A DNA stretch of 64,000 nt from Pegea sp. RAD2-039 (lineage: Eukaryota > Chordata > Thaliacea > Salpida > Salpidae): NCBI GenBank assembly GCA_034620365.1, contig JAQGEQ010000365.1, positions 310,001-374,000 on the forward strand. The letters are read 5' to 3'. This document shows positions 690-45,508 of the stretch, piece after piece. The notes below the pieces were generated by a model. It had not been told where the DNA came from, made no database searches, and saw nothing but the letters and a program-made list of their open reading frames with translations. Every line of letters begins with the position of its first letter. The first letter of the stretch is position 1. The position numbers and the translations under genes are program-made.

Positions 690-1110
690 TAATTACAAGA
701 AACGTGAAGGAGGGTGCCTGAAGAGAGCACATCATACATATGATACCTATCATAAATAATTAAGTTATAGAAAGCAAAAGATGTAACACATGGCATTTCC
801 ATAGTCTTCAAAGCATTTAGCAGTGAACAATTATATAAAAGTGAAAATCACAGTTTAGAAATGATAATGTTGGTAACGGTTCAACTTCTACTTGAACAAC
901 GCGAGTGATTCTGACATGACAATGTCTGATGGCAGCTGGTTCCATGTATTAATTGTGCGATATGAGAAAAAATTCAATCTGATTAATGCACCAGGTGATA
1001 TGGGCTTATTAAGATGTAATGTGTGTCGTCTGAGTTGATATAACTTGAGGGAAGGACTAGTAGAAAAAAAATCATCAAACTAAAGGTCAATTAAATTGTG
1101 GATAATTTTG
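690..1110 (-). mobile_element. LINE family 1, C-terminal RT ORF end and 3' UTR
   Basis: Read on the minus strand, 860-1,020 encodes a typical tail of a CR1/Jockey-type non-LTR reverse transcriptase ORF: FSYRTINTWNQLPSDIV followed by an SLALFK-like helix, comparable with the VINTWNSLP signature of that group. It runs into the 3' end shared with 1-320 and 54,960-55,190, finishing in GGGTGCC/GAGCAC-containing sequence near 710. It is a 5'-truncated dead insertion of about 420 bp. Confidence 0.7.
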
Positions 1111-1149
1111 AAAATAAGATTTAAGTTAAATTTTATCCGTCAAATTTCA

Positions 1150-1432
1150 ATGAAAAATTTATGGAAACATCTGTTTGTCTCATTTCTAGAAAAACCATCA
1201 AATATTAAAACACAATTGAAAATATTTTTGTAAAGTTAAAACGTTTTAAGTTTCACGGTTTTTGAACATTTATATTAGAAAAACCAGCAAATATTTATAT
1301 TTAACTAAAATATTTTCGTAAACATTAAATTGATATTTTACGGATTTTTGAAAAAGAACTATTCTCTCAATATTTATTTTCTAATAAATTAGATGTTACG
1401 AGACAAGATGTTACTTCAAAAATATAAATTAC
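1150..1432 (-). other. FUT8 copy 1, intron 6 sequence
   Basis: This stretch is closely similar to 23,285-23,468, the start of intron 6 of the complete FUT8 gene. Similarity stops near 1,150. Exons 7 and 8 of this copy are therefore not seen inside the window; they may lie beyond the left edge, past the LINE insertions. Confidence 0.6.
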
Positions 1433-3469
1433 TTTTGACGAAATTCTACAGCAACAGCAGGTTCGTCAGTAGCAAGATAAACACGACGTTGAACTGTTAC
1501 AGGTTTCAATTGTTTCCTAGATTCTTTCCATTCTAAAGTTCGGAACCATTCTTCAGTAAACATCATGTAACTTTCTAATTCATGTTTTACATTTAATTCT
1601 GGTATTTTGTCAGTTCTTCTCACATGAATTCTATTTAAAATGTTTAATAAAGTTTAATCTGATACCAGGCAACAATTTTATTATTTTAGATATTTGTACA
1701 AAAGTTTTAGTAAAAAGTAATTTGATTAAAAGTCAAAAATATGAATCAATTTAAAATGCCTCTAATACTTATCATATAATCAACAGTTACAGTTATAACT
1801 TGAAGCTTATAAACTTAAATTTATTAAAAACAAATGTTTATGAGTAATAAAAAGTTTTTAAGATGAGTAATACGATCAACATGAGTAATATTACCCGACA
1901 AACAAACAACTTCTCAACAACAACAAGTTGTTTGAAGTAAATTATAAAAATTTCTGATGTGAAATTCGACTGAATTTCAATTTTTAACCAACGATTGATT
2001 TTATAGAAATAGAAATTTGTTACTTGATTGTAATCCTTACCCAACAATTGGATGTGAAAATTTTAAACTTTGTTGAAAATCTTGAATATTTTTAAGAGTT
2101 TCTGGTTGAAGACGAAGCAAGTAACTAAGGACTTGTCCAGTCCACCATGCTGCTGGGTTTCCATGGAAACGCTCCAACGATTCTTTAAAGGGTTTTGGGA
2201 TTGTGTGAAATGAGAAAATTGTTGAACGATAAATAGGTTGAAATCGAATTGTGCAAATTGCATCGCGGTCTTTCGTCTTTTCTCCACCTTCAAAAATATC
2301 TTCTGATCCTGTTGAAAAAAAACTTTGAAATTAGGTTTTGATAAAGTTACGAAGATACACCCAAGATTGAAATTCAAAACTAAACTAATAAAAAAAAATG
2401 TCTATTTACATTTCGAAAATTCGTAAAATTTGTTTGTAAACCCTGTTTACCATCTCCTAAACCCTGTTTTATAACCCCGTAAACCCTGTTTACAACCCCC
2501 TAAACCCTCTTTGCGTATTTAGTATGTAATTTTTTAGTTATCAGTTTTTAGTTATTAAATTTCTAAATTATCAGAATCTAATATTAAATTAATTTTTTTT
2601 TTCTTTTCGAAACCTTTAATTAATAAATTTTAATTTTATTTATTTTATTTATTTTATATTTTAAAATGATAATTGTAATAAACAAAGCTAATAAAAATTA
2701 AACATTGCAAATAAAAAAAAATATAAAAATAAAAATATTTATTCCTTTTAAACTAAAATAACCAAAAAAAACTTTTCCATTTAAAAGGAAATTTCGTAAA
2801 ATTTGTTGCTTTAAATCTTGATAAAATTAATTTAAAAGATTTCAACATTAACTTACCTTCCCATTCTGGACCTTTAACTGATTTTGTATCAAAAGATGAA
2901 CATTTTCTACTAATTGGTTGAAACAATGAACCATCATGAAATATATCTTGAACAAATGAAGGAACTGTCTTCTTATCAATGAGTAAAGTTCGGTTGGTTC
3001 CTAATGCGATCAGAAAACATTTTGCATAATGATGAATAACACAACCAAATCCACAATAACGAATCGTTCTTACAATCAACTTCCTTCTATCTTCACAGCT
3101 TTCCTCAGGCTCCTATAAGATTTAAGGTGATTTTCAAATATTTGAAAACTCAAAAGTTTTAATTTGAAATTAGAAACCAACTTGATTGTTCCAAATTGCG
3201 TTTTGAGCTTTTAACACTAATTGAATAGATTCCTGAGTATTTTCTAAATTATTTTTTTCAAGTAGCATATCGACAATCGAATTTATTGATCTATAAGAAA
3301 TTACGAGTAATAAATTATAAATTAATTAAACAAACTTACATCTGCCTCTCCAGAAATCTGTTCTTTAATTGATCATCTTCAATTACTTCATTAATAAAAT
3401 TGAAAAGATAAATAACTTCATCTTTAATACGTTGTAAATTGAACTTTGAACGAATAAGAAAACAAAAAC
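1433..3469 (-). CDS. FUT8: Alpha-1,6-fucosyltransferase copy 1, exons 2-6 (partial)
   Basis: Exons on the minus strand are 3,340-3,469, 3,182-3,290, 2,857-3,112, 2,041-2,308 and 1,433-1,630, all open with GT-AG borders. The last four have exactly the lengths of exons 3-6 of the complete gene at 22,594-26,600 (109, 256, 268, 198 nt). FUT8 moves fucose from GDP-fucose to the innermost GlcNAc of N-glycans in the Golgi. Visible family features are CGFGCVIHH in exon 4, HGNPAAWWTGQVLSYLLR in exon 5 and the GDP-binding HVRRTDK in exon 6. The membrane-anchor exon is not found between 3,470 and 5,180, and the SH3-coding exons would lie left of the window. Exon 2 is shorter than in the other copy and begins in a different phase. 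It could be a working paralogue or a fragment; the intact exons favour recent or continuing constraint. Confidence 0.75.
2440..2516. repeat. Short telomere-like 20-bp minisatellite (about 4 units)
   Basis: About four units of a roughly 20-bp repeat with the core CCCTAAACCCTGTTT lie in intron 4 of FUT8 copy 1. The same place in the other copy (24,905-25,335) holds about twenty. The flank at 2,517-2,880 is nearly identical to 25,330-25,690. Confidence 0.8.
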
Positions 3470-9200: not shown

Positions 9201-12200
9201 ACAAATTTATTTGAAAAACTCAAATTGAAAAGTGAACATTGGAAAAATTGTATAAAAAAATCCGAAGGTTATTTGAAGCGTCATTCTAATAGTAACCATC
9301 ATGAAAGGTTTGTTTAATGTTTAATTAAATAGATTCAAATATCTTTACACTTGTAGAGTTCGTTTATGGGTAGATTTAGTAAAGACTTCTCGTCAACAAA
9401 GGATCTGGGACGTTTGTAGAATTGCATCTATATTCTGTTTGTTTTATGATGATAATAGATGGTCAATTACTAAAGGTTTGTTTATTGTTGGTTTTAAACA
9501 AATACTTAAAAAAGCTTTTGATGAAGATAAAAGTGAAAGTGTTTCTAGCACTTTAAAATATAAAGAAGAAGTAGAGATACAACGTTTACAAAGAAGAGAC
9601 TTTTTAAAGATGCTAGCTGAAGTTTCATTGATTTTAGGGGAGGTGACAACAAAAAACCACCAAATCTGAAATTTTAAGACTTTTTACAATTTTTAGGCGT
9701 TCATACATTTCATTCAAAATGAAGGTCTTCAATTTAATGATATTCCAAAGAAACAAGACTTCCTTCAAAAGATTACTAATCCTCATCAAAATTTTCCTGA
9801 TGAAGAAATTCATTTTGAAGCTTATTGTGAATGGATTAGATCTTTAAACGAAAGAGCAACTAACTGTTTCCTTCGTGGAATTGGTAATCTATCAATTTGA
9901 TGATTTCTTTTTTTATAAAACTTTTCAATCACAGAAATCGGTGTTGATTTGAATGAATGTTGGTTAGTTAGTAATGGAAGTATTTATTTATGGAATTATA
10001 ATTGTCATTTGATGATGGAATCACGTTATACAGAAATTGTTTCAACTTTTCAAACTGTTTTACAATCATTAACATCTTTACCTCATCAAAAGTTTGTTAG
10101 TTTCAAATCTCATCAAGATATTTACATCTTGATATTTCAGCCAATCAATTTTAATCACTCGTATCTGTAACGTGATTGGTCGAGGATTGTTGTTACCATG
10201 GATACCAAAACCTTCGAAAAATTCATTGGAAAAAATGGCGACAGTTACAAGAAAATCAGCAAAATCTCGAAAGTCGACAATCAAAGATACAAACCCTAAT
10301 CTGTTGATGGTGTCTTCAGATGCTGCAGAAGATTTGAAAGAAGCTTTGAAGGTCTCTCTTTCATCTTTCTACTTGATCCTTAAAACTTCTTGTAGGTTGT
10401 TGAATTTGGTTTGAACTTGACACATGGTGACGTCACCATCTCGATGTTTATACGTCATCCTTTAATTATAACTTGGGTTGAATTGAAGCAGTTGATGACT
10501 CAGCAAATTCAAGCTCCTTTTTATGAATCTGAAAATGAGGTTGGAAACATGACTCAGCAAATTTCTACAAATTTCTTTTATTTACTTTTTTTAGAATCCA
10601 CAAGAACTACAAATGCTTCAAGCTTTGGTTGTCATAGAAATGCTTTCAGCTAACAACAAAAAATTATTCAAATTTGTCATTCCATCTTTACAAGAAGTAA
10701 AAAATCTTTTAATCTTTAAATTCTGATGATTTTTTTTGGATGCAGATCTTTCAATTAATTGATGATGTATCTTGGGATGATCCTGTTATTGAATTGTATC
10801 TTTGGGAACAACTCAGTTTCAATTCTTGCACCGAAAATCAACATCAATTGGTTCTGAGTTGTGTTGATAAAGTCCTAAAGATGAAAGATCAAAGCCTGAA
10901 AATCTTAATGAAAGAAAAGAAGTCTCAAATAAAAGAGTAAAATAATTCTTCAATAAAACTCCGAGAGATTCAAATTAACTTTCAGATATCGAATCAAACT
11001 TGCTTACAAACATATCTCAAATATTTATCAAATAAATGGCAAATCTATCATCTCATCTTCAATCATAAACTTAAATCTTCGAAAAAAAGCTCTCAATAGC
11101 TTCCTCGATAGGTGATGACGTCATTGTGATCACCATGACGTCATTAACGCGAGTGTTTCAGTGTTCTTTATGGCAAAAAAGCGAACAGTTATCGACTAGT
11201 AATGACGTCATCACGTCTCTGGTGGCAAACTCTAAAACCTCTGATGACGTCATCACATCTTTGGTGGAGCACTATGAAGCCTTTGATGACGTCACTAGGT
11301 GACGATGACCTTGAGTTGAGGAAAAGTTTAACGGATATATTGTCGTGTGTTGATGACGTCATTAAATCTGGTGATGACGTCATGGTAAGTGACGTATATG
11401 TTAAGTGATGTAACTGATTTGTTGGTAAATGTAGAAAGATGAAAATTCTGAGGAATCTACCGTGGAAAGTAGAAATGATTCTCCTAAAAGTACCTCTTCA
11501 GAAGATTCCGATTTAGAATTTCAAATCTCTTTATATGGATTACTCTTCAAGACATTTGCTGAAAAGGTTAGTTGGTCACGTGGTCGTTGGTCACGTGGTC
11601 GTTGGTCACGTGGTTGTTGGTCACGTGGTTGTTGGTCACGTGGTCGATGGTCACGTGGTCGATGGTCACGTGGTCGTTGGTCACGTGGTTGTTGGTCACC
11701 TGGTTGTTGGTCACGTGGTCGTTGGTCACGTGGTCGATGGTCACGTGGTCGTTGGTCACGTGGTCGTTGGTCACGTGGTTGTTGGTCACGTGGTTGTTGG
11801 TCACGTGGTCGATGGTCACGTGGTTGTTGGTCACGTGGTAGTTGGTCACGTGGTCGTTGGTCACGTGGTTGTTGGTCACGTGGTCTTTGGTCACGTGGTC
11901 GATGGTCACGTGGTTGTTGGTCACGTGGTTGTTGGTCACGTGGTCGATGGTCACGTGGTTGTTGGTCACGTGGTTGTTGGTCACGTGGTCGTTGGTCACG
12001 TGGTCGATGGTCACGTGGTCGATGGTCACGTGGTTGTTGGTCACGTGGTCGTTGGTCACGTGGTCGTTAGTCACGTGTTGTTTTTTATTTGATAGAATGA
12101 ATGGGGAAAAGGGTTGAAAATGTTGGAAGAAATCCTTCTTGTTCTTCCTCGATCCAAACTTCGTCTTCCACTCTTCAGGCATCGAGTCATCGCGAAAGCC

Positions 12201-15200
12201 AAATTAGGTTATGACGTCACAATGGAGTTGAATAAGTTCAAGGTTGTGGTTTGATATCTTTGCTGAATATTCATCATCTGATCTTGTTTAGAATGAAGAT
12301 GAGATGAGTGTGTCTTTGATATGGAAGCAAGTTGCGTTATCAGCTCCTTCGATCAAAGAACAGTTTGCAGGATATCAGAAAGCTGTTGAGTCACTCACAT
12401 CACCAGAGACTCGTCTTCTCAAGTTCGAACTTCTACTTGAGATTGCATCTTGGATGTACAACAACAACTTCCAAATATCAGGTGAAGATACTCGTGAAAA
12501 AAATCTTCTTAAAAATATGATTTTCATCTCAGATTGCATCTCTTTGTTAAATTGGGCTTCTGATTTAATGCTGGGAATCACCAAACGAGAAGATGTAGTC
12601 GTGAAAGAGAACACGAAGCAAAAATCATCTGTCGGATCACGAAAGAACTCTAGAAGATCAGCAGAGATCAAAATAGTTCCAAATGAGAAGGACACGTCAT
12701 CGAGTATAGTGAGTCTTTCGAAAAGATGAAGATTCGATTTAAAAAGTCTTTTTAGGAGCAAAACAAAAGATGTGAGTCTCAAATTAAAGAAGAAGAGGAA
12801 AGAGTTTGGAAATCGATCGGAGTCTTTCCTGTTTATAAAGATCTTTCATTAAATGATTTGGTTAATATCAGACAACTTGAAGGTTTTTCTCATTCTCTTG
12901 GTTTTTATTTGATTCAAATTGAGAATATTTTAGGTTTGATACGAAGTCACGTGTCTCTAGCGCGATTGATTCGAACATCTGATCTTCATCATCAAGAAAA
13001 TTTGTATTTTGCATCATTTTGTGTCAACAGGTTCGAAATTGGAGTCATTTTTCAGATTTTTTGAAATAATTTCATCTTTTTTTAGATTATTTAAACTTGT
13101 TCACGATTCAACATTAAAAGTGAAAAAGCAAATCGCAAAATTAGCGGCTTCAGAAGAAACAAAAACAACAAAAGAACAAACAAACAAAAAAATAAATGAT
13201 AATAAACACAAACCTTCTAATATAACAAACTCAAATAAACCGAAAAAGAAATGTAAATATCTTGAAGATAAAAGAATTCCACTAAAATATCTTCTTATAG
13301 ATGACCATCTACCAACTAAACTTAGTGATTGGTGTATATTTGATACTTCTGATGAATATAAATTATACATAAACCATGAACTGAACCAACAAGGTTTAAA
13401 TAAACAGAATATTCCTTATCCATTGATTACAATCAAAACTTTACTGGTTGGTTTTTTATGAGTTGTTGTCATTTTTAAGAAATTTATTTTATAGAAATTA
13501 AGCGAAATGTTACGAACAATTGGATATCATAATCTCTCAGTCACACCTTTATCATTAGCATCACTTATTGCAGAATGTTTATTACAAAATAGAAATGTTT
13601 TACAACTAGTCAGACTACATCAGGTTGGTTCAATGGTTTTGATATACAAATACTTGCCACTATTTTCTTCATTTATTTCAAGTACTTTTGTCTTTACTGT
13701 GTTCTATTTGTTGCTAGTTGTTAGTCACGTGGTTGTTGGTCACGTGGTTGTTGGTCACGTGGTCGATGGTCATGTGGTTGTTGGCCATGTGGTCGTTGGT
13801 CACGTGGTTGTCGGTCACGTGGTCGTTGGTCACGTGGTTGTCGGTCACGTGGTTGTTGGTCACGTGGTTGTTGGCCATGTGGTTGTTGGTCACGTGGTCG
13901 TTAGTCATGTGGTCGTTGGTCATGTGGTTGTTGGTCACGTGGTCGGTGGTCACGTGGTTGTTGGTCACGCGGTTGTTGGCCATGTGGTCGTTGGTCACGT
14001 AGTCGTTGGTCACGTGGTCGTTGGTCACGTGGTCGTTAGTCATGTGGTCGTTGGTCATGTGGTTGTTGGTCACGTGATCGTTGGTCACGTGGTTGTCGGT
14101 CACGTGGTCGTTGGTCACGTGGTTGTTGGCCATGTGGTTGTTGGTCACGTGGTCGTTAGTCATGTGGTCGTTGGTCATGTGGTTGTTGGTCACGTGGTCG
14201 GTGGTCACGTGGTTGTTGGTCACGCGGTTGTTGGCCATGTGGTCGTTGGTCACGTAGTCGTTGGTCACGTGGTCGTTGGTCACGTGGTCGTTAGTCATGT
14301 GGTCGTTGGTCATGTGGTTGTTGGTCACGTGATCGTTGGTCACGTGGTTGTCGGTCACGTGGTCGTTGGTCACGTGGTTGTCGGTCACGTGGTTGTTGGT
14401 CACGTGGTTGTTGGCCATGTGGTCGATGGTCATGTGGTTGTTGGTCACGTGGTCGTTGGTCACGTGGTTGTCGGTCACGTGGTCGTTGGTCACGTGGTTG
14501 TCGGTCACGTGGTTGTTGGTCACGTGGTTGTTGGCCATGTGGTCGTTGGTCATGTGGTTGTTGGTCACGTGGTCGATGGTCATGTGGTTGTTGGTCACGT
14601 GGTCGTTGGTCACGTGGTTGTCGGTCACGTGGTCGTTGGTCACGTGGTTGTCGGTCACGTGGTTGTTGGTCACGTGGTTGTTGGCCATGTGGTCGTTGGT
14701 CATGTGGTTGTTGGTCACGTGGTCGATGGTCATGTGGTTGTTGGTCACGTGGTTGTTGGTCACGTGGTTGTCGGTCACGTGGTCGTTGGTCACGTGGTCG
14801 TTGGTCATGTGGTTGTTGGTCACGTGGTCGGTGGTCACGTGGTTGTTGGTCACGCGGTTGTTGGCCATGTGGTCGTTAGTCACGTGGTCATCGGTCACAT
14901 CGTTGCTGGTCACGCGGTTGCTGATCACGTGGTTGCTGCTATTTTCACTAATTTTGTTGAACTGTGGTATATATGGCTTAAAACTTAAATATTTTCTTAA
15001 AGAGCTAGAACTAACATTTATCCAACGCATAAATCACTTTTTAAGCTAACCAACTTAATTTAATGTTATTTTTTTGTATAAATCATTCAAAAAATCTATT
15101 TTTAGATAATACTTTGTTATGAGTTACATCAGACTCAAGCAGCTCAATATTGGGAGTCATTTTTAGAAGAGCAACCAATTTCATCTGTTGATATTGCAAA

Positions 15201-18200
15201 ATACCAAAAAGTAACCAGATTTCATCCAACAATTTCAATATTTAATTTCAATATTTCAGTTTGCAACTGTTATAAATGATTGTAATAACGCAGCTGAATC
15301 TTCAAATGAAATGAATCTACCAGATATTTGGATAAAATCTTCTCGAATTTTTATCAAGTTTGCTCATTACTCTTTAATAATCGAAATTAAACATGTGACG
15401 TTTCAGATTAGGGTACCTACAGTCAGCAAGACTTCTTCTAAAAAGTTCTTCTGTAGAAAAGACTGAGAAAAGATCAAATTTTTATTTAGCATCAGCAGAT
15501 CTTGCAATTCATGATGGTAAGCAAGTACAAGCTCTTGAATATTTGATGGAAGCTCAAAATATTGGTGGAAATATGAATTTTTGGCAAGTTAGTATTTTGC
15601 TTGTTTCAATTTATAAATTTCTAAATAAAATTCTTTAATTTTTGCAGGATTGTATCGACTTGTTAGTCTCAGCAATTACTTTAGGTCGTAGCTTATGTGA
15701 AACAGATTGTTTAAAAGCGGTTGAAGTGTTAGAACATGCTCATCAAACTTTAACCAACTTACAACAACTAAAACCAACAAAATCAACAGAAATTAGTAAA
15801 TCAGAATTATTCTCATAATCTTCATTCAAATCAAATTTGATTTCAGAACGACTCAAATTGATTTTAATTATCAAAACTTCTCTCCTCAAACTAAACATCT
15901 CAAATTCATCTCTTCAAACAATCATAAGACCTCTTCAAGACGCTGAAAGCGATCTTACAGACATCATAAGCGTTCGCGAGTTATCTCTTATTCAATTGGT
16001 TGATTTAAATGATTTTTTTGATGATTTTTAAAACTTTTAAATCTCAGAATCACGCCAAGGAGGTGGTCAAATATCTCAATCAACTAGATGATAGTGAAGA
16101 TCTTCAAAAAGGTCTTTTAAGTATCTTACAACTTCTTCAAAGATGTCAAATGAATCTTCACAACTTTATCAAGTAATCTGATTTCATCTCAAACTTCTCT
16201 AAGATCTTTTTTTCAGTGATTTCATTGAAGAAGATCTCGAGTCAGATGTAAGTCTCCCTGTTTGTAGAGAACTTTGTGAGATTGAAATGATTTTAGTGGA
16301 AGTTTTACTGAAATGTGAAGAAATTTTTGCGGCTCAATTTCGTTTAGCTGAATCAGAAGAAGTAGAAAAAGGTCCCAGAATTTCTTCAAATCTTCTATTT
16401 TTTGAGGATTTTTTTGATTTTAGGAAGAGCAAGGAAGATTGTTGAAAGATATCTTGAGTTCCCATCAGTCCTTGATGAAATAGGAAGTGAAGAATGGAAG
16501 AAAGAACGAGATGTCTTCTTACTTCGAGCTTTTAGTCTTCTTAATTCAGTTTATTGTCGTCAAACTATCATCAACGAATCTCAGTAAGAATCAAAAACTT
16601 TTAAAAAAATTCTCAAATCTTCGATTTTAAAGATCAAAATGGCTCTTTCTAATTGGAAAAGGTCTTCGATTGCTCTCAGAGAAGTTCAGTTTTGATCACG
16701 TGAAGCATCAGTGGATGCTGCATGAAATTTTTGCATCAGTTGATACTGATCCGTTATCTTCAAATTCAGATTCGCGCAAAACTGAAAACGACCATTTTGG
16801 TGCAACTTTTTGAAAATTTGATTTTTATTAATTTGAATTATTAATAGATGATTATGATGAACCTGAAATTGAACATAACGAAAGTAGAATTTCACTTACA
16901 AGCGATGAACGTAACGCTTGTAAAAATGCAAATTCAATTTGTATTAATTCAGAACATGCTAACAGGTTCATCTAATTCCATATAAAAATTTGAAATTCAT
17001 CCAAAAAATTTTTTCCAGAATTATTTCTCATTCTTCTGAAGTTTTAGGACAAGCTGTGAAATTAGCAGTGAAAGAATCTTCAATTGATTTAATTGAAAAG
17101 ATTTCTTTAGAGTTAGTTGAATGCAGTGGACAATTTGATTCGATATTGACATCTTCTTGTCTTACTCTTCTCCAAGTATTTGATCTTTTATATGTTGAAT
17201 TTCTGAACTGAAATATCTTATTTTAGTCTGTTTCATCGATTAAACATATGAGATCTGTTGTAAACCAATCTCTGGTTGATGTAAATTCATCTCTGCTATC
17301 TTCTTTAACTTGGATTGTAAGTTAATCTTTTGATTAATTGATTACTTGTAAATTTGATGAATTTCTAGGAATCTTTTCTTGAAATTAATTCAATCTCTAC
17401 AGGATTATTAAAATCAACTGTTGCTAGGAATATAGAGATCACATTAAAGAAGAGTTCTACAGTTTGGAAAAGATTATCTTTAGTTTGTTTACTAATTCAG
17501 ATAAATTTTCTAACTTCAAATCTTCATCTTACAGACATCCAATCCATTAGACTCTCTTCATGATATCCCATCTTCTTTCACTCTGGCACTTATTCATAAG
17601 AAGCCTCAAATTTTTCCAAATGATTCATCAACGTTTTATTGTGCTGTTATTCGATCAACACAAATTTCTTCTGAAAATAAAGGAAAACAAAGTCATAAAA
17701 ATCATATTCAAACATTAGCTTGTGTTCGGTTATGTCAACTTGAAAATACAAAGTAAGTTTTTCAAACAACTAATTTGTATTTAAAATCATTTTTCAAGGT
17801 TCAACCACGTAAATGAGCTTTTAGAAAATTTAAAATCAAGCCAAATGAACCATTTGCTGAAAAGTGAATATCAACATCAACAGATTCTATTAAAAAATCA
17901 AATTTTAACTAAATTAGAAACTTCTTCCCATTTAAATATTAATAAAAATAAACAAAAGAAACAATTAGAAGCGTTTGAATTGATAAATAAAGTTTCTATA
18001 AATGAAGAAATGAAGTTGAAGGTAACATTCAAATATATTTTACTTCAAAAAACTTAATTTTCTTTTTTGTAGAATGATTTTAATGAAATTGTTTATGAAC
18101 TGAACGATTATTTACTTCAAGTAGCTTCTTTTATTGAAGAAAATATTTTAATTCCTCAAAAACCTTTCCATAAACTTCAGGTAATATTTAAACAATTTCA

Positions 18201-19952
18201 ATTTTAAATATTTAACTTTTGTGTCTTTCACCAGGCCAGTTTTGTAAACGACCAAATTTTACCTTCAATTAATTTAGTAGTTTTAGTAAATCACAACTTA
18301 TTTGGACTACCTTTTGAAACAGTAACCAAGTTACGAAACTCTGTTCATATTCTTTCAATTTCTCGTGACTTTTCACTACAAGTAATTTTTTTGATGGTTT
18401 TATCTTCATCGGTTTCTAATAAAATCTTAAATAAAGATGTTACTTCATCGCTTAATTGAAGATGATGTAAATGAAATAGAAAGTCAGAAAAAAGACAACG
18501 GAGTAAAAGTAAAGAGTAAAGATAAACCTTATACTTATAAAAGAGAAGTTTCATCTGATTGTTTTGCAATTGAAAGCCGTAGGTGAGTTTATTTTTAAAA
18601 AATCAAACTTTTATTTGTGATTTTAAACAATTATTTACCTTATCTTAGCATCAAATATATAATTGATCCAAATAACGACACCATCAACTCAAGTCTTCAC
18701 AAACCTTCAGATGTATTTAAATCTTTATTAAAAGAAGATGGTTTAAGATCATTTACTCAATCGTGGGCGGGTCATTATGGAACTGATGAAACACCAAGTT
18801 TAAAAATTTGGGAAAATCAAATTACTAATTCACAAGCTTTTATATATTATGGAATGAATACATTTGTTTCACAAGTATGATAATTTCTCACTAAATTTCT
18901 AATTATAAATATTTTTATTTGGTCACGTGGTCGATGGTCACGTGGCCGTTGGTCACGTGGTCGTTGATTACGTGGTCGATGGTCACGTGGTCGATGGTCA
19001 CGTGGTCGTTGGTCACGTGGTTAGTTGGTCACGTGGTTGTTGGTCAAGTGGTCGTTGGTCAAGTGGTTGTTGGTCAAGTGGTCGTTGGTCACGTGGTTGT
19101 TAGTCACGTGGTCGTTAGTTACGTGGTTGTTGGTCACGTGGTTGTTGGTCACGTAATTTTAATATAATTTTATTACCTTTTGATGGTATATTATTTGATA
19201 ATTTTCTACTAAATTTGTAATTATAGTTATTTTTATTTTGAAGTTATTTGAAAATTTATAATATTTTTTACAGATTCCAGCTTACAAACTAGTTTCCTTG
19301 TCAATGAAAGAGACTCAACTTGCTTTATTAATAGATAAAGTTCAAACTCATAAAAGTTTTGTAAATAGATGCAGAAGTAATGTTCATAAAAGTGAAAGTT
19401 TAACTTCTCTAGAAAAATTCTATGAAGTAAATATATTTTCTTATTATCAAACCAATTTAACTTGATTATTTTAGACTTCAGTATTACTTAGTCTAAATGG
19501 AGTAAATGCTATTTGTATGAATCAATGGTATACAACTCTAGAATCAAATGCAGAAAACTTGAGAACATTTTTAAGATTATCTGTTAGTCAAGGACTAACT
19601 GTAGGAAGAACTTTACACAAAATATTTGTTCCAATTCCAGATAAAGTTCCTAATCCTACTATAAAAGTTTCTAAAGGTTTCTACAATTAGTTGCAAGAAA
19701 CTTGATTTTTTTACTTTTTTCAATTTTTTAGAAACTAAAAAATCAGCAAAAGGAAGCAAAAAAGATTCAAATAAATCAAAACCTTCTGAAAAAGCAACTG
19801 GAAGTGCAAAGTCTCGTAAAACACCAAAAAAATCAACAAAATCTGATGAAGAAAATGATATAATTGAAATAGAACCAATTGTAATACCTTCACCAACATC
19901 TACTTCATGTAATCTGACTCTCGTTGGTTTACCAAATCTTGTATTTGTTTAA
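6300..19952 (+). CDS. CFAP46: Cilia- and flagella-associated protein 46
   Basis: CFAP46 is a large repeat protein of the C1d projection of the axonemal central apparatus, needed for normal ciliary beating. The gene reads through dozens of small exons, e.g. 6,300-6,345, 6,401-6,531, 6,760-6,891, 11,162-11,384, ending in the stop at 19,950-19,952. The ATG at 6,300 is chosen because the one at 6,304 meets a stop at once. Family landmarks: DLYVLCAELALK and FLCRAYLCQAQ near the N-terminus, then FNTSVLYWSMIREF and a DWRATLKM segment; SYRLVMTSSRLWW in the middle; near the C-terminus FTQSWAGHYGTDETPSLKIW, then LSLNGVNAICMNQWYTTLES, before a lysine/serine-rich tail. Introns at 11,567-12,095, 13,624-15,105 and 18,875-19,273 contain CACGTG minisatellites. 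The exon at 11,162 holds a 14-residue internal repeat. I did not resolve every exon border. Identity is secure. Confidence 0.93.
11110..11384 (+). repeat. TGACGTCA cluster and 42-bp coding repeat in CFAP46
   Basis: Seven copies of the palindrome TGACGTCA start at 11,116, 11,136, 11,203, 11,245, 11,287, 11,354 and 11,375. The first two sit in the 51-bp intron 11,111-11,161; the others in the exon 11,162-11,384. The three at 11,203-11,287 are spaced exactly 42 bp and mark a tandem 14-codon repeat (MTSSRLWWQTLKPL, MTSSHLWWSTMKPL, MTS). Two further octamers lie at 10,428 and 12,212. Confidence 0.85.
11574..12076 (+). repeat. 15-bp CACGTG minisatellite, array 1
   Basis: About 33 units of GGTCACGTGGTCGTT and its variant with TTG in place of TCG fill the CFAP46 intron 11,567-12,095. 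Only 7 bp before the array and 19 bp after it are left for splice signals. The G-rich strand is the plus strand. Because the unit is a multiple of three and lacks stop codons in all phases, long apparent reading frames appear in all six frames; they are artefacts. Confidence 0.97.
13723..14938 (+). repeat. 15-bp CACGTG minisatellite, array 2, with higher-order structure
   Basis: About 81 units in the CFAP46 intron 13,624-15,105. Units vary (CACGTG, CATGTG, CACGCG cores; TCG, TTG, TCGA linkers). Marked units recur at fixed distances: GGTCGGTGGT at 13,941 and 14,196 (255 bp, 17 units), and GGTCGATGGT at 14,421, 14,571 and 14,721 (150 bp, 10 units). The array thus grew by block duplication. Confidence 0.97.
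18878..19238 (+). mobile_element. Candidate inserted unit: array 3 plus shared flank between 43-bp direct repeats
   Basis: The sequence TGATAATTT..TCACTAAATTT..TAATTATA..TTTTTATTT is present on both sides of array 3 in the same orientation, with a handful of differences. Between the copies lie the array and the 40-bp flank common to arrays 3, 4 and 5. This is what a target duplication or a template-switch insertion would leave. The repeat is too long for an ordinary transposon target duplication, so the mechanism is open. Confidence 0.45.
18921..19154 (+). repeat. 15-bp CACGTG minisatellite, array 3
   Basis: About 15-16 units, some with CAAGTG cores, in the CFAP46 intron 18,875-19,273. It is followed by a right-hand flank (19,155-19,196, including CTTTTGATGGTATATTATTT) also found after arrays 4 and 5. 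Array plus flank is bracketed by a direct repeat of about 43 bp (18,878-18,920 and 19,196-19,238). Confidence 0.95.
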
Positions 19953-20642
19953 TACTTAACTATTGTGAAAGTAACTGTGTTTACGTTTGAATTGTAGGTT
20001 TTGTAGTTACTGATATCTAATATAATACTTAGAATTAAACGATATCTTCAAAATAAAGCTAATATCAGATTATACAGATTTTTGAGAAATAAAAGGTGTC
20101 TTGTGAAAAATAATATCCACAAAAAACGTTATTTTTAATTTTTTGTAAATATGCTGATAATAAGGCCTAACAGAAAAGGTAGAAAGATCATATTTTATTA
20201 ATTAAATAATATTCGTGAAGTTTTTGCTAATTCAAAATGAGGTAAAGGTCTTTTAGCGTTCGGAAATTTCTAATAGAAGATATTATTTTGGTAAATAAGA
20301 AAACAAGAAAGTTATTTATTTAACGATCTCAATTTTTTTTCAAAAATAAAATCTAAAGATAAAAGTAATTAGAAAATTGTGAACTTATACGAAGAAGTTA
20401 TTTTAAAATAAATAAATTCTCTGTTACCTGATTCTAAATACAAACGAGTTTTTAAAGATTCATTTAAATAGATTCAAGCAAAGAATTATGATCCTAATTA
20501 ATTATTTGAACTTAAAAAGTTAATCCATCAATTTATTTGTTAATTAAAACGCTTAAACTAACAAATTATGAATGTAATTATAGATAGTGTTTGTATTTAA
20601 CAACAAGTAACTAAAAGTAGTTACAAATTTAGAGTTTAAATT
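19953..20642. other. Intergenic, nothing recognised
   Basis: This region downstream of CFAP46 is A+T rich. AATAAA-like hexamers occur soon after the stop (AAAATAAAGC at about 20,050) and could serve polyadenylation. I see no gene. Confidence 0.5.
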
Positions 20643-21234
20643 GGTCACGTGGTTGTTCGTCACGTGGTAGTTGGTCAAGTGGTTGTTGGTCACGTGGTCG
20701 TTGGTCACGTGGTCGTTGGTCACGTGGTTGTTCGTCACGTGGTAGTTGGTCACGTGGTCGTTGGTCAAGTGGTAGTTGGTCACGTGGTCGTTGGTCAAGT
20801 GGTTGTTGGTCACGTGGTCGTTGGTCAAGTGGTTGTTGGTCGCGTGGTCGTTGGTCAAGTGGTTGTTGGTCACGTGGTCGTTAGTCACGTGGTCGTTGGT
20901 CACGTGGTCGTTCGTCAAGTGGTCGTTGGTCACATGGTTGTTGGTCAAGTGGTTGTTGGTCAAGTGGTTGTTGGTCACGTGGTCGTTGGCCACGTGGTTG
21001 TTGGTCACGTGGTTGTTGGTCACGTGGTCGTTAGTCAAGTGGTCGTTGGTCAAGTGGTCGTTGGTCAAGTGGTTGTTGGTCAAGTGGTCGTTGGCCACGT
21101 GGTTGTTGGTCAAGTGGTTGTTGGTCACGTGGTCGTTGGTCAAGTGTTTGTTGGTCACGTGGTCGTTGGTCAAGTGGTTGTTGGTCAAGTGGTTGTTGGT
21201 CACGTGGTCGTTGGTCACGTGGTAGTTGGTCACA
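20643..21234 (+). repeat. 15-bp CACGTG minisatellite, array 4 (intergenic)
   Basis: About 39 units, a large share carrying a CAAGTG instead of CACGTG core. This is the only array outside a gene. On the right it continues into the flank shared with arrays 3 and 5 (21,235-21,281, CTTTTGATAGTATATTATTT). Confidence 0.96.
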
Positions 21235-21449
21235 TAATTTTCATATAATTTCAGTAACTTTTGATAGTATATTATTTGATATACTAATTAAAGAATGAAT
21301 ACTTTAAGCTTTAAAAGTTTGGTGAAATCGAAAATTCATTTCAACAAAGTCAATCTGGTATAAAACCAATTATTTTATGTAAAAGTTTTGTATTAATTTT
21401 TGGTACTGCAGAATATTAGGTTTCTTGTTGTTAGGTTATCAATAAGTTT

Positions 21450-21745
21450 TTAAAATTTGAAATTGAAGTCAACGTAAAAGTAAAGGACCTGACTTCCTGC
21501 TTCTTTATCGCGTTGTTCACGTTATTTGGCAATTTCTTAATATATCAATCAATAGTATCAAAATTAATCGCAGTTTCACGAATAAGTTTGTACTTTCTAC
21601 AAGATCATTTCAATCATTTCAAGGATTTATATTTGGATGCAAAGGTCGTTACACAAGATTAAAAAATAATCTTACTTATTAAAAAATCCTTTATTTTGAT
21701 TGGTCAAAACACAATAATTAGGCTTAATGAGAGAAAATAAAAGTA
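21450..21745. repeat. FUT8 3'-flank duplication, right copy
   Basis: It is nearly identical in blocks to 4,780-5,070. It lies about 0.85 kb beyond the stop of the complete FUT8 gene, whereas the left copy lies about 0.1 kb beyond its FUT8 last exon, so one copy has gained or the other lost sequence between. Confidence 0.85.
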
Positions 21746-22593
21746 TATCAATCAGAAAATAGAACTAATGATTTTTTTAACAAACTTACTTTTAATAGGA
21801 GAGAGAAAGTGTAATAATAGTATAACTAAAATGTTTAATTTAGTTTTACCTTAAAAAGCTTAGAAATATTGATTTAGTAAACTTAGTTTTTTTAGAAGTT
21901 GTCAGCTTTTGCAATTTATCACTTAAAGTTTGATATTTAAAAATTGAGTTTAATTCATATTCAACCAATCATTTTGTTATTCACTTGGTTTGTGAAAATA
22001 TCGAATTTAAACTCAGTCAAGCTTAACACATACTCCTTTAAAATTAAACAAACAAAATATTATATTCTTCAAATAAGTAATATTTTACGAATAAAAAAAT
22101 AACCAAATTCTTATACATTTATTGATATTATCAAAAAAGTTTGCAACTTTAGAAAAGTAGAAAAAAGCACAACATTATCAAATAGTTTTTATAATTTTTA
22201 AATATACAAAAATCTTTACAAACTTTACAAAATTGATTTTGGTTCGAGTAAGAAACTGGTAAAGATTTATTTAAATGTTTCTAGATCCGTTTTCTTGTGA
22301 AAGATTATGAATAATGTAAACGTTTAAAGCTTTATATTAAACTTTCATACTTTTACTAGATGGTTTTAAACGAAGAAAATGATTTCTGAAATTTAACAAA
22401 AAGTAAAATTAGACAAAGAAAAAGTTGTTTTGACAAAATTTTTAATAAAAACAGATTTCTTATTTGTTATGAAAATATTAAAAAAGGATTTTATTTTTTA
22501 AATGCTTATAAAAATATAACTAATAAAATTTGCAAGAAATAAAAGATGTCAACATAAAAATTTATTTTCTATAAAAATAAAGATGAGTATTCC
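21746..22593. other. Intergenic, nothing recognised
   Basis: A+T-rich DNA downstream of FUT8 on its strand. I see no gene or repeat. Confidence 0.5.
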
Positions 22594-25500
22594 TCAAACT
22601 TCAAATGGATAAGGAGCTGTAAACTGATGAAGAATGACTTTAAAAGCAGGATAAACTCCTTTCTCCTTAGTTCGTCTGTTCGTTCCAGTCCAGTAACCAC
22701 GTTTCCAAGGTGCCCAGATAAATCGATCAATAATATCACCAACTATGAAAGATAACTCTCCATCTTTTCCGATATGATTTGCAATTGCAATTTGATGTGG
22801 TTTGTAATCAGCTAGATGATGATATGGCCAACCAAGTCCTACAACTTTTTCACTTGCATCTACATGTTTTGTTTGAAATAGCGGATAAACTAATCGACCT
22901 ACCTGCAAATGTTAGTGGAAGTTATTTATATTTTCTTTCCTGTTAACAACAAACTAACATTAGATTCATATCCCAATACAAGATAATCGCATTCAATTAA
23001 TGTGAAAATATCTTTCACAATCCCTTCAGGACCAACTTTCTGGCGGTTTTTCATTGTAGCTTCTTCTGTAACTTTTTCATCATGTATAAGTTGATAATTT
23101 GGATACCTTTAAATACATTCAACTAAAATCACAATTTTGTAAACAAATTTACTTTGTAGCTCGCAACAAATGTTTTATAAACTAGATATATTTGTTTATA
23201 ATTTTAATTTTTTCTTGTTTTGATATAAAATTTTCAAGAATATCGATTTTCAATTAATAGCAAAGATTGTTGTAATAAAAAATTCATAAAAAACATCTGT
23301 TTGTTTCATTTCTAGAAAAACCAGCAAATATTTATATTTAACTAAAATATTTTCGTAAACATTAAATTGATATTTTACGAATTTTTGAAAAAGAACTATT
23401 TTCTTAATATTTATTTTCTAATAAATTAGATGTTACGAGACAAGATGTTACTTCAAAATATAAATTACTTTTGACGAAATTCTACAGCAACAGCAGGTTC
23501 GTCAGTAGCAAGATAAACACGACGTTGAACTGTTACAGGTTTCAATTGTTTCCTAGATTCTTTCCATTCTAAAGTTCGGAACCATTCTTCGACAAACATC
23601 ATGTAACTTTCTAATTCGTGTTTTACATGTTGTTCACTTATTTTGTCGGTACGTCTCACATGAATTCTATAAAAATAAAAAAGCTTTCGTTTAAATGAAA
23701 TATAATTTTGATAGCACACGTGGTCGTTAGTCACGCGGTCGTTAGTCACGTGGTTGTTGGTCACGTGGTTGTTGGTCACGTGGTTGTTGGTCACGTGGTC
23801 GTTGGTCACGTGGTCGATGGTCAAGTGGTTGTTGGTCACGTGGTAGTTAGTCACGTGGTTGTTGGTCACGTGGTTGTTGGTCAAGTGGTCGTTGGTCACG
23901 TGGTTGTTAGTCACGTGGTTGTTGGTCACGTGTGTGTTAGTCATATGGTTGTTGGTCACGTGGTTGTTGGTCAAGTGGTTGTTGGTCACGTGGTAGTTGG
24001 TCACGTGGTCGTTAGTCACGTGGTTGTTGGTCACGTGGTTGTTGGTCACGTGTGTGTTAGTCATATGGTTGTTGGTCACGTGGTCGTTAGTCACGTGGTT
24101 GTTGGTCACGTGGTTGTTGGTCACGTGTGTGTTAGTCATATGGTTGTTGGTCACGCGTTCGTTGGTCACGTGGTCGTTGGTCACGTGGTTGTTGGTCACG
24201 TGGTTGTTGGTCACGTGGTAGTTGGTCACGTGGTCGTTGGTCACGTAATCTTAGTAACTTTTGATGGTATATTATTGAAATTTGTAAAAAATCAATTGTT
24301 GCAATCAGGTTGATTTCTGTTTCACAAAGAAACAAATAGGAATAAATTTATACATTTGACCGAAATTCAGATTGATTTTTTGTTTAAACAATTTTTAAAG
24401 AACAAAAACAAGTTGTTTGAAGTAAATTATAAAAATTTCTGATGTGAAATTCGACTGAATTTCAATTTTTAACCAACGATTGATTTTATAGAAATAGAAA
24501 TTTGTTACTTGATTGTAATTCTTACCCAACAATTGGATGTGAAAATTTTAAACTTTGTTGAAAATCTTGAATATTTTTAACAATTTCTGGTTGAAGACGA
24601 AGCAAGTAACTAAGGACTTGTCCAGTCCACCATGCTGCTGGGTTTCCATGGAAACGCTCCAACGATTCTTTAAAGGGTTTTGGGATTGTGTGAAATGAAA
24701 AAGGCGATGAACGATAAAATTCATGATCAACAATTGTACAGATTACATCACGATCTTTTGTCTTTTCATAATCATCTTCTTCATTATTTGATGCTAACAT
24801 CAAAATCAAAACAACAAATTTTTAATGATGAATTGTTTAACTTTAAATAAATTTAATTTCTATTTCTATTCAATCCTTATTATTTAGTTCTAATTATACA
24901 TCTCTTGAAAATAAGCCTGTTTGCAACCTCCTAAACCCTTTTTACAACCTCCTAAACCCTGTTTGTACCCCCCAAACCCTGTTTGTACCCCCTAAACCCT
25001 ATTTGCAGCCCCTAAGCCCTGTTTACAACACCTTAAACCCTGTTTGCAGCCCCCTAAACCCTATTTGCAGCCCCCTAAACCCTGTTTACAACTTCCTAAC
25101 CCCTGTTTATACCCCCTAAACCCTGTTTGTACCCCCCAAACCCTGTTTGTACCCCCTAAACCCTATTTGCAGCCCCCTAAACCCTGTTTACAACTTCCTA
25201 ACCCCTGTTTATACCCCCTAAACCCTGTTTGTACTCCCCAAACCCTGTTTGTACCCCCTAAACCCTATTTGCAGCCCCTAAGCCCTGTTTACAACACCTT
25301 AAACCCTGTTTACAACCCCCTAAACCCTCTTTGCGTATTTAGTATGTAATTTTTTAGCTATCAGTTTTTAGTTATTAAATTTCTAAATTATCAGAATCTA
25401 ATATTAAATTAATTTCGTTTTTCTCTTCGAGACCTTTAATTAATAAATTTTAATTTTATTTATTTTAAAAGATAAAATAAATAAAATGATAATTGTAATA

Positions 25501-28059: not shown

Positions 28060-28975
28060 GACGGATGGATGAGGAACGGACCAAAGGATCTGTTGTACAG
28101 GGAGCTATCAAAAGGCAACATCGTTGATACTGCCATCTACTGAGCCTTCATCTGCAGTACGCTCTTGTACACGAGTGGAACTTGGATTTGTCGAAAATTA
28201 GGGAAGATATCTTTCATTTTCGTCGTAGACTACATCTAACGTGGCAGCAAAAGAAATGAAACAAGGAAGTGACACAGCGGTCTGACAACAATGTACAGCT
28301 AAGGACACGTCTGTCAAATGGATGAGGGACGGACCAAAGGATCTGTTGTACGGGTAGCTATCAAAAAGCAACATCAGTCGTCCTGGTCTTTGTTTCAAAG
28401 ATACTTGCAAGCGCGATATGAAGTCGCTTAACATCGATACCAGCAACTGGGAAGATATCGCAGCGGATCGCTCCGATATGCAAAAGATATGAAACAAGGA
28501 AGTGACACAGTGGTCTGACAACAATGTACAGCTAAGGACACGTCTGTCAAATGGATGAGGAACGGACCAAAGGATCTGTTGTACGGGTAGCTATCAAAAA
28601 GCAACATCAGTAGTCCTTGTATTTGTTTTAAAGATACTTGCAAGCGCGATATGAAGTCGCTTAACAGCGATACCAGCAATTGGGAAGATATCGCAGCGGA
28701 TCGCTCCGATATGCAAAAGATATGAAACAAGGAAGTGACACAGCGGTCTGACAACAATGTACAGCTAAGGACACGTCTGTCAAATGGATGAGGGACGGAC
28801 CAAAGGATCTGTTGTACGGGTAGCTATCAAAAAGCAACATCAGTAGTCCTTGTATTTGTTTTAAAGATACTTGCAAGCGCGATATGAAGTCGCTTAACAG
28901 CGATACCAGCAACTGGGAAGATATCGCAGCGGATCGCTCCGAATGGCGCTCTCTACTTAGAATAAAACAAACAAA
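28060..28975 (+). mobile_element. LINE family 2 ORF tail, tandemly repeated 233-bp unit
   Basis: A 233-bp unit is repeated at 28,256, 28,489 and 28,722, with a diverged part-copy at 28,060-28,160. Each unit encodes on the plus strand the classic C-terminal end of a non-LTR retrotransposon polyprotein: KDLLYG.LSK, then FKDTCKRDMKSLN and NWEDIAADRS. The last unit continues to EWRSLLR, a stop at about 28,970 and a 3' UTR-like tail. The period is not a multiple of three, so the units are not in one frame. Frames on the opposite strand are shadows. Confidence 0.85.
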
Positions 28976-41300: not shown

Positions 41301-42525
41301 TCTCATTTTTATGATTGGAAAATATTCGTATAAAGAAGAAATTTCATTTCAATCATCTTCATATTATTCTATAAAACTTATTAACAAATTATTAAATCTA
41401 ATATCTAATAACATATTTTGTAAATAAAAGATTTACTCAAAAAAACTTTGGAATATTTTCATAGAAAAATTTGTTACAAGAAAACTGAGAAATCTTTAAA
41501 TAGTTTTGAAATATTGAGGAACTTTTATTTGTTTTTGAGAAGGTTTTAAAGAATTTTAGTTTTCTAGAAATTAATTCAATTCTTTAAAATGAGTTTTTTA
41601 AGACATTCGATGAAAATTCAATTTTAAATTTATAAAATTAGAGATGAATTATAACAATATTTTTAGCTTGATTATCAAATTATAAAAAAATGGTTTTAAT
41701 CAAACGTATAGAATGAAATTGCTGTTTGTGGAATGAAACAACAAATATTTAAATCAATATTTGAATGAAAATATTCAAAAATAAATAATTTAAGTTTTTA
41801 GATTTCAGAATCGTTGTTTAAAATTGAACAAAGTAGAAAATACAGATTTTGACATAAAAAGTAATTTATGAAGTAATTTATGATTGTCTATAAACCAATA
41901 ATAATTTTTGATAGAAGAACAAAAGTTGTGAATATTTCAGAAATTTAATATTCAGCCAGAGGAGGTCTTCGTATAAAAACGGATTTAATCTTCGTGATCT
42001 TTTTAAGATAAAAACTTCTTTCAGATAAAGAATTTAATTTAGGAGAGGAGAAGTTTCAATAATTTCTAAATATTTCTTGTATTGAACGATTTGAAGGTTT
42101 AGTATGAAGTTTGTGAGTTGATTTTAACTCTTTAAAGATGAAGATGTCTCAAAGATGCTGCAGATTTTGATAAACTTTTAAACATTTAACTTTAAACTGA
42201 TTCGATTGATGAAGTATTTAGAAAAATTAAGAAATAATAATTGCTACAAAAATATTTGGATTTGTAAACAAAGTAAATCTATTTTCTCATTTAACTATGA
42301 ATCGGATTTTTCTTCAAGATTAGATCAGCCCTTATTTGATTCATATTTTTTTCAAAAATCTCATGTTCTGATAATCAATCAGCAGATGAACTGAACTTTA
42401 AGGTGGACGAGAAGTGAATGGATTATTTGCAGCAATTTTTAGGAAAAATAAATTTTAGTCGTTTTTGGTAAATTTATAATAAAATACAACAATGAAAAAA
42501 GTTTTATGATAAAAAGAAAAAAATG
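41301..42525. other. Intergenic, nothing recognised
   Basis: A+T-rich DNA between the prohormone gene and the tRNA cluster. A small open frame near 42,206-42,394 has no support. Confidence 0.5.
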
Positions 42526-42597
42526 TTCCTACACCGGGAATCGAACCCGGGCCGCCTGGGTGAAAGCCAGGAATCCTAACCACTAGACCATATAGGA
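42526..42597 (-). tRNA. tRNA-Glu (anticodon UUC), copy 1
   Basis: 72 bp. Read on the minus strand it starts TCCTATATGGTCTAGTGGTT and ends in TGTAGGAA. Anticodon loop CTTTCAC, T-arm GGTTCGATTCC. A T run follows the 3' end on the minus strand, a polymerase III terminator. Confidence 0.97.
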
Positions 42598-42723
42598 GGA
42601 TAGTATTAATTGTTATCTTGTGTAACTCAGAATGTTTTCAGAAAATATAAATTTTAGTCATTTTGGTAAATTTATAATGAAATACAACAACAAAAAAAGT
42701 TTTATGATAAAAAGAAAAAAATG

Positions 42724-42795
42724 TTCCTACACCGGGAATCGAACCCGGGCCGCCTGGGTGAAAGCCAGGAATCCTAACCACTAGACCATCTAGGA
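42724..42795 (-). tRNA. tRNA-Glu (anticodon UUC), copy 2
   Basis: Same as copy 1 except that the acceptor stem reads TCCTAGA, placing G6 opposite G67. That mismatch may weaken it. The flank on the 3' side (AAAGTTTTATGATAAAAAGA) is shared with copies 1 and 5, so they arose by local duplication. Confidence 0.92.
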
Positions 42796-44012
42796 TTTTG
42801 AGAGCAAATAGCTTTTTTATACCAATCCAATATCAATCATCTATAGTATAATAATTAATTAATTTATATAAATATATTTATTTCACAACTGACATTTGTT
42901 CAGTGAATTCGTTGAAATGTTCCTGTTGCAACGGTGTAATGAATTAAAATTTATCTACAAACTTTATAATCAGATTTTCAAAAACTTTAACGATAAACAA
43001 TCAGAATAATTTAAAATAAATTATCAAAATTTCTTCAAATTATTCAGTTTATGAATTTACATCTTAATATCAGTCTTTGTGGCATCTTCTGTTGATGAAG
43101 ATCATGAAATCAGAAGATAGATCTTCAAACAATTTTTGAAGCTCACAAAGAAGATTTAGAATTTAATGATAAAAATAATTAAAAAAAAATCTAAAAATTT
43201 TTGTGATTTTGAATTAATGATGAAAGGATTCTTTTAAATACTACATCTTGAAAAATGATAAAAATCAAAGATTGAAAAGATATCGAAACTTATGAGATTT
43301 GTAGATAAGTTTAATTATCAAAGTAAATTATTTGCTTACAAAACCAATTAAACAAATTGTATTTGGTAAACAAACTCAAATATTTACTTCAAACAAAAGA
43401 AATAGAAATAAAAAAGTTTATTTGAAATTTTATTTCAAAACAAATTTGTTGTAAATATCAAATAATTAAAAAATATACAATTATTACAAATTGAAATATT
43501 ATTTGCTTTTGTTAGACTATAACAACAACTCAATAATTATTATATTTTAAGTTTATTTCTAAAACAAAATCTAAATAATAATTACAAATATTCAAACTTA
43601 TTTAAATCAAAGCACAATTTTAAATAAATTTTATATCAATAAAATAAATAATTTTAATTATAATAATATTAATTATCTTAAATAATCAATTAGATTAGTA
43701 ATCCAATAACATAGAATTCAAGAAAGTAGAAAATGAGAATATAACTTTTACAAATATCACAATCATTTTCAGTATACTAAAAAAACTTAGAAAAATAAAA
43801 GTTGAAGTCAAAAGATTTTTTAAAGAAAATTAAAATTTTAAGAAGAAATTGAATCTATATTTTAGTTTCATTTTTAAAGATTTTCATGAAATTGAAGAAC
43901 ATTAAAACTTGCTTCTGTTGGTAAAGTTGTTTTATTTTGAATGAAGAAACCCATAGAGAACATATTAGATATTGCGATCTTTCAAATAGTCTTTGAAATT
44001 AAATAAAAAATG
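42796..44012. other. Spacer in the tRNA-Glu cluster
   Basis: A+T-rich DNA, no gene. The last 150 bp before 44,012 resemble sequence near 44,990-45,085 and 45,680-45,740. Confidence 0.45.
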
Positions 44013-44084
44013 TTCCTACACCGGGAATCGAACCCGGGCCGCCTGGGTGAAAGCCAGGAATCCTAACCACTAGACCATATAGGA
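44013..44084 (-). tRNA. tRNA-Glu (anticodon UUC), copy 3
   Basis: 72 bp, identical to copy 1 in the mature region. The 3'-side flank (TTTGAAATTAAA) is shared with copy 4. Confidence 0.97.
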
Positions 44085-45089: not shown

Positions 45090-45161
45090 TTCCTACACCG
45101 GGAATCGAACCCGGGCCGCCTGGGTGAAAGCCAGGAATCCTAACCACTAGACCATATAGGA
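45090..45161 (-). tRNA. tRNA-Glu (anticodon UUC), copy 4
   Basis: 72 bp, identical to copy 1 in the mature region, with a T-run terminator on the minus strand. Confidence 0.97.
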
Positions 45162-45436: not shown

Positions 45437-45508
45437 TTCCTACACCGGGAATCGAACCCGGGCCGCCTGGGTGAAAGCCAGGAATCCTAACCACTAGACC
45501 ATATAGGA
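45437..45508 (-). tRNA. tRNA-Glu (anticodon UUC), copy 5
   Basis: 72 bp, identical to copy 1 in the mature region. About 80 bp of its 3'-side flank (from about 45,345) matches those of copies 1 and 2. Confidence 0.97.

Follow-up and report, generated by a model that had tools for sequence, protein, structure and literature searches.

Minisatellites change their length and the order of their units by tandem turnover. The spread of euchromatic satellites in Drosophila is said to have been described by Sproul et al. in 2020, and insertions with tandem duplication that result from patch-mediated break repair were reportedly described by Vaughn and Bennetzen in 2014. According to the accessible parts of the reports concerned, 1.688 and Rsp-like satellites have inserted at new euchromatic sites in Drosophila and may contribute to rearrangements (PMC7919458), alternative end joining is linked to templated insertions (a review, PMC7407515), and offset nicks made by a Cas9 nickase, with 43-bp overhangs, give tandem duplications by fill-in and non-homologous end joining in mouse cells (PMC8355091). 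Here, we analysed a 64,000-nucleotide stretch of the genome of the salp Pegea sp. RAD2-039 (contig JAQGEQ010000365.1, hereafter C278, positions 310001-374000; the assembly, GCA_034620365.1, comprises 105.7 Mb in 387 contigs). This stretch, called the window, contains five arrays of a 15-bp CACGTG minisatellite, and positions are those of the window unless a contig is named. We conclude that it holds a real case of local minisatellite copying together with a flank of the donor site, and that on present evidence there is no new mobile element. The likeness to the 1.688 and Rsp-like satellites, as far as the accessible text describes them (PMC7919458), lies in tandem euchromatic arrays that appear at new sites. 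The locus differs from them in its 15-bp unit, in a local spread over 5 kb and in a donor flank that is identified. No published account of the 15-bp unit or of such a transfer was found in the literature searched, which was short on subscription papers. The Drosophila 1.688 and Rsp-like satellites also have longer units.

The five arrays are head-to-tail, contain 15.7-81.3 copies each and were delimited by Tandem Repeats Finder (TRF) at 11571-12077, 13717-14935, 18919-19154, 20641-21233 and 23717-24246 (arrays 1 to 5), spanning 13 kb. With up to two mismatches, the unit has 186 matches in the window compared with a mean of 0.04 in shuffled sequences, which confirms the initial annotation in assigning all five arrays to one unit. 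The G-rich strand is the plus strand in all five, as the annotation had also pointed out. This orientation holds inside the window (186/186 matches) but is not a rule of the genome, where exact units occur 111 times in forward and 8 times in reverse orientation. Relative to the host genes, the G-rich strand is the sense strand in arrays 1-3 and the antisense strand in array 5. Array 3 (18921-19153, plus strand) consists of 15 units, an irregular unit of 16 nt and a partial unit. Array 4 (20643-21234, plus strand) lies between a CFAP46-like and a FUT8-like gene, and array 5 (23714-24245, plus strand), the likely donor locus, is antisense to the FUT8-like gene. Arrays 3 and 4 have the same left register, both starting at TTGGTCACG, although no constant left end is common to the five arrays.

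On the right, arrays 3, 4 and 5 end in a common flank of about 40-50 bp, as the initial annotation had correctly recognized; it is missing from arrays 1 and 2. The right ends of arrays 3 and 4 read GTCACRTAATTTT[A/C]ATATAATTTYAKTAMCTTTTGATRGTATATTATT, and that of array 5 is the same except that it lacks about 11 bp near the start. The copied flank of array 3 (19154-19195, plus strand) ends in TATATTATT, and that of array 4 (21235-21276, plus strand) is followed by TGATA, as at array 3. The right side of array 5 extends over 24246-24321 (plus strand), with the shared part reaching 24276, and is read as native FUT8 intron. We searched the assembly with a 22-base flank pattern at up to three mismatches, using the reversed pattern as control. 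The pattern gave 35 forward and 26 reverse matches and the control 36 and 33 (61 versus 69). Three matches were exact (arrays 3, 4 and 5), none had one mismatch, six had two and fifty-two had three, so that the looser matches are no commoner than in the control. With 0-1 mismatch, the flank is present at three places, all inside the window and no more than 5.4 kb apart, and nowhere else in the 105.7 Mb. No array was found at the looser matches in the 27 of 58 loci fetched, each with 0-2 unit-like matches, and the flank was not found beside any of 11 fetched 15-bp arrays on other contigs (nine on C279 and two on C148).

These results bear on the proposal of the initial annotation that the arrays had moved or been copied together with their flank, as in Helitron- or helentron-type elements or some non-autonomous elements. 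We retain joint transfer for two of them, arrays 3 and 4. The refuting test proposed with the annotation gives a divided answer. The flank is not widespread without arrays. On the other hand, most arrays, namely arrays 1 and 2 and the eleven on C279 and C148, lack it, and the confinement to three places within 5.4 kb does not fit a Helitron, a helentron or a dispersed element. An array with a fixed right end does recall a Helitron, and mini-helentrons with internal repeats exist. However, there is no genome-wide family, and inverted alignments of the 150-bp flanks, scored as terminal inverted repeats, remain at chance for 5/5 arrays. Moreover, a 43-bp duplication is present at array 3, and we know of no target duplication made by Helitrons. 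Taken together, a Helitron or another DNA transposon can hardly be considered. The miniature inverted-repeat transposable element (MITE) of Porphyromonas gingivalis that contains a minisatellite is similar, in the accessible text, in that an array is tied to non-repeat sequence (PMC4596501). It differs from our locus, which has neither inverted ends nor a dispersed family.

The flank itself seems to come from an intron. The FUT8-like gene, identified by a match to PF19745 (E 2.4e-14), carries array 5 in an intron at 23667-24525 (minus strand), and the exon pair around it has four close paralogs, at C278:311432-312270, C205:17024-17656, C8:103583-104562 (C8a) and C8:114371-115353 (C8b), together with others, less closely related, on C47 and C19. 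In all four close paralogs the homologous intron is free of arrays. When the right side of array 5 (75 bp) was aligned with the introns of C205, C8a and C8b, the scores were 66, 54 and 58. In a control of 610 genomic windows the mean was 34 and the maximum 53 (0/610 reached 54), and shuffled sequences peaked at 46-48. In addition, one of the 2-mismatch flank matches (C205, 17411-17432), the sole looser match placed in a gene, falls in the homologous intron of the FUT8 paralog, between exons 17024-17266 and 17453-17656. Beyond the shared part, TATTATTGAA is found in array 5 and in both paralogs of the alignment, and TATTATTTGATA in arrays 3 and 4. At this point arrays 3 and 4 switch to TGATA, and array 5 continues like the paralogs. 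Because its right side matches the introns of three array-free paralogs, the array 5 locus is the likely donor, and a templated insertion with an identifiable donor is in line with a flank that matches FUT8 introns by way of array 5. The flank is thus likely to be FUT8 intron, and the donor would be the array 5 locus as it was when the additional 11 bp were still present.

This origin also bears on a SINE-like or LINE-driven insert, in which reverse transcription of an RNA of the array and flank would have taken place at the insertion site and left a long target duplication. Classical inserts of this kind have a constant 3' end, a variable 5' end and a flanking duplication, and a constant right end, a variable left side and, at array 3 only, a flanking duplication are what we observe. 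Nevertheless, no poly-A or simple-repeat tail was seen on reading the sequence at the shared end, three copies confined to 5.4 kb of a 105.7-Mb assembly are not what such inserts would leave, and the sequence of the shared end is that of an ordinary intron and continues in the paralogs. We consider this explanation very improbable.

The second line of evidence concerns the edges of the insertion at array 3. A 43-bp direct repeat brackets array 3 and its flank exactly: the left copy (18878-18920, plus strand) abuts the first base of the array, and the right copy (19196-19238, plus strand) abuts the copied flank. The copies are identical in 39/44 columns (BLAST E 5e-7), and 0/500 shuffles scored as high, with a maximum of 31. 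The repeat resembles a target duplication of the CFAP46 intron. Neither this repeat nor the intronic position of four of the arrays had been recognized in the initial annotation. At arrays 1, 2, 4 and 5, direct-repeat scores gave no sign of a target duplication and were at chance. At array 4, the left flank can be aligned with a C8 paralog that has no array, and the alignment stops about 3 bp short of array 4. This paralog was rejected as a full empty site, the right side being unalignable near the array, and only the left edge is supported. TGATA after the flank is common to arrays 3 and 4, and at array 3 it belongs to the CFAP46 intron. For this reason, either array 4 was copied from array 3, or copying went in the reverse direction with TGATA as microhomology.

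We think it fairly probable that the array and the donor flank were copied locally by templated or patch-type break repair and then underwent tandem turnover, and that the copying route was probably DNA repair rather than a jumping gene. The history would start from CACGTG minisatellites in the introns of a compact, AT-rich animal genome, with array 5 in the FUT8-like intron. A segment of array 5, together with about 40-50 bp of FUT8 intron on its right, would have been copied about 5 kb away into the CFAP46-like intron, giving array 3, and the same piece would also have been placed between genes, giving array 4. The 43-bp copies around array 3 may have arisen when two offset nicks were filled in, or when the polymerase switched template and returned 43 bp upstream, and tandem turnover would afterwards have altered array length and unit order. 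What is observed directly comprises the shared flank and its rarity, its match to the FUT8 introns of paralogs without arrays, the duplication that brackets array 3 and the intronic positions. The repair mechanism, and a direction that leads from array 5 to arrays 3 and 4, are inferred. The break-repair duplications in the accessible text of PMC8355091 are similar in having a target duplication of tens of base pairs at offset nicks with a 43-bp overhang. The insertions differ in that the insert here is an array with a scrap of neighbouring intron, and in that our case is known from sequence alone.

Several observations weigh against this account. Taken separately, the 45 bp that follow the shared part do not reach significance (295, 30 and 18 of the 610 windows reach the scores of C205, C8a and C8b). 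The flank of array 3 by itself scores 55 against the C205 intron (shuffle maximum 58), that of array 4 is marginal (47 against a shuffle maximum of 44), and both score under the shuffle maximum with the C8 introns. Since these flanks alone are at or near chance against the paralogs, the FUT8 origin of the flanks of arrays 3 and 4 goes via array 5. Array 5 in turn is without the approximately 11 bp present at arrays 3 and 4, and for this reason it is not, in its present state, their exact source. The fourth paralog, located in the window (1276-2282, minus strand), has a diverged intron without the flank; it scores 38, and 148/610 windows are as good. With regard to the duplication, 15/786 windows reach a score of 32 in a real-sequence control without the abutting rule, about half of them in a tandem-repeat stretch near 28 kb, and an abutting direct repeat of score at least 30 exists at 12/6901 window positions, in two clusters (29.1 and 45.0 kb). 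No flanking duplication was found at array 4 (direct repeat, p 0.32), so that one of the two recipients has such a duplication. Finally, a repeat of the shared flank in the left flank of array 5, a possible duplication, was rejected, 141/1633 windows being as good.

Tandem arrays form circles readily, and reintegration of circles has been proposed for the euchromatic satellites of Drosophila. A DNA circle containing a portion of array 5 with 40-50 bp of FUT8 intron, reintegrated nearby, would accommodate the joint transfer of an array with a short single-copy flank. A defined circle also fits the left register and the right junction that arrays 3 and 4 have in common. It would demand an additional staggered break for the 43-bp duplication, however, and there is no permuted copy among the three flank copies, so that we give this route a small share of the probability.

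The make-up of the arrays provides a further view of their relationships. CAAG units account for 0/34, 0/81, 3/15, 16/39 and 3/36 of the units in arrays 1-5 and for 63/332 in nine of the eleven fetched C279 and C148 arrays; CGAT units number 8, 4, 3, 0 and 1 in arrays 1-5 and 0/332 in the same nine arrays. On these counts arrays 1 and 2 differ in make-up from the other arrays, and array 3 holds both kinds. CAAG was considered as a private mark of arrays 3-5 and rejected, given its frequency on C279 and C148; arrays 1 and 2 have none in 115 units. In array 3, the three CGAT units precede the three CAAG units, an order with a chance of 1 in 20, and the array may thus be a mosaic. This would suit ectopic gene conversion or break-induced copying between pre-existing arrays at three sites, running into the flank, as would the presence of five array sites within 13 kb and the duplicated stretches on C279 and C148 that break at arrays. 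The 43-bp duplication abutting both ends of array 3 and its flank points instead to a fresh insertion, and we regard conversion as unlikely.

The donor flank, the likely recipient sites and the target duplication are all readable in one 5.4-kb stretch, which illustrates how a minisatellite seeds new sites. The case also cautions against inferring a transposon merely because repeat arrays have a flank in common. Should the pattern prove general, the spread of repeats would be linked to break repair and to the growth of introns.

Arrays 1, 2, 3 and 5, four of the five, are intronic, array 2 with weak homology support. The CFAP46-like gene that hosts arrays 1-3 was recognized from a 468-aa exon set (about 11.4-19.7 kb), picked and joined by eye, which matches 9ijj_A, cilia and flagella associated protein 46 (E 4.7e-56); a Pfam search of the set assigned no family. 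CFAP46 is single-copy in the assembly, with 7/7 matches inside the window, and no second haplotype was found there. By reading frame, the borders of its three array-bearing introns (plus strand) are in phase 0. The intron with array 1 (11567-12095) has splice sites and an exon join under a 98.8-bit CFAP46 match, that with array 2 (13624-15105) is placed mainly by splice sites and reading frames, homology being weak (11.6 bits), and that with array 3 (18875-19273) has an exon join under a 79.8-bit match. The first of these is nearly all array (GAAAAG/GTTAGTTGGTCACG ... TTTGATAG/AATGAATGG), the repeat extending from the 5' splice site to about 20 bp short of the 3' splice site. A match of TTTGATAG, at the end of this intron, to the shared flank was short and spotted by eye, and was set aside. 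Palindromes of the TGACGTCA type recur at 11107-11395, in the same gene, and also in a 162-bp repeat on C279 (L062:5787-6136).

A functional explanation would be that the arrays are kept as clusters of E-boxes (CACGTG) for bHLH factors. An analogy is offered by human TERT, whose intronic variable number tandem repeats (VNTRs) carry a MYC-type E-box, many hTERT VNTR2-1st repeats including CACGTG; the unit there is 42 bp, and the accessible text describes no flank transfer (PMC2915984). In favour of such a function, CACGTG is intact in 33/34 units of array 1, but it is intact in only 50/81 units of array 2 and 21/39 of array 4, and the four close FUT8 paralogs do without an array in the homologous intron. 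Selection for E-boxes is therefore a doubtful explanation, with little weight in our assessment.

Related minisatellites are found elsewhere in the assembly. Arrays of the 15-bp unit are also present on two other contigs, C279 and C148. A single exact unit was found on C177, where the 8 kb fetched contain no such array, and the flank is missing there too. The arrays of C279 and C148 lie in stretches (1.5-3.0 kb, 97-98% identity) that are alike on one side of an array and unlike on the other (L062/L063, L063/L067). Recent duplications on these contigs (L061-L063, L067) show homology that breaks at the 15-bp arrays, and a 769-bp tandem repeat has an array in every copy. On C148 and C279 the 15-bp arrays also interrupt a dispersed repeat, of which the window contains a copy without an array at 875-1141 (plus strand). 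More distant CACGTG-type minisatellites occur at 14 places on other contigs, six of which were fetched. Among these, a Tmemb_14 domain is split by an array of 19-bp units and a homeodomain by one of 16-bp units; another 16-bp array lies between two CNH domain parts, and an array with a 14-bp unit is directly adjacent to a RasGAP exon. The two on C14 and C35 stayed without gene placement. Minisatellites with 14-, 16- and 19-bp units are seen in both orientations within introns of genes unrelated to one another (L068, L070, L071, L073), and one CACGTG unit (GTAAGTTGGTCACGTG) includes the 5' splice-site consensus GTAAGT. A broader possibility, to which we give a low probability, is that CACGTG minisatellites form an intron-colonising class, pieces of which would escape with a scrap of host intron, insert nearby with a long target duplication, expand and at times fill nearly a whole intron. 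If this were true, repeat spread, intron growth and the exchange of intron pieces between genes would be one process.

Some further features were noted in and around the window. A spliced-leader pattern of rotifers gave 0 matches. The FUT8 paralog at 1276-2282 was considered as an empty site for array 5 and rejected because of its diverged intron. Both C8 paralogs (L075, L076) carry another repeat-like piece between the exon and the flank of the FUT8 intron, near the relative position of array 5. A 20-21-bp minisatellite of the TAAACCCTGTTTACAACCCCC type is present in about 20 copies at 24916-25333, beside one FUT8 copy, and in 3.6 copies at 2437-2512, beside the paralog. At 28247-28942, a 233-bp unit is repeated three times in tandem (97% alike), and five tRNA-Glu (TTC) genes lie on the minus strand within 3 kb at 42525-45508.

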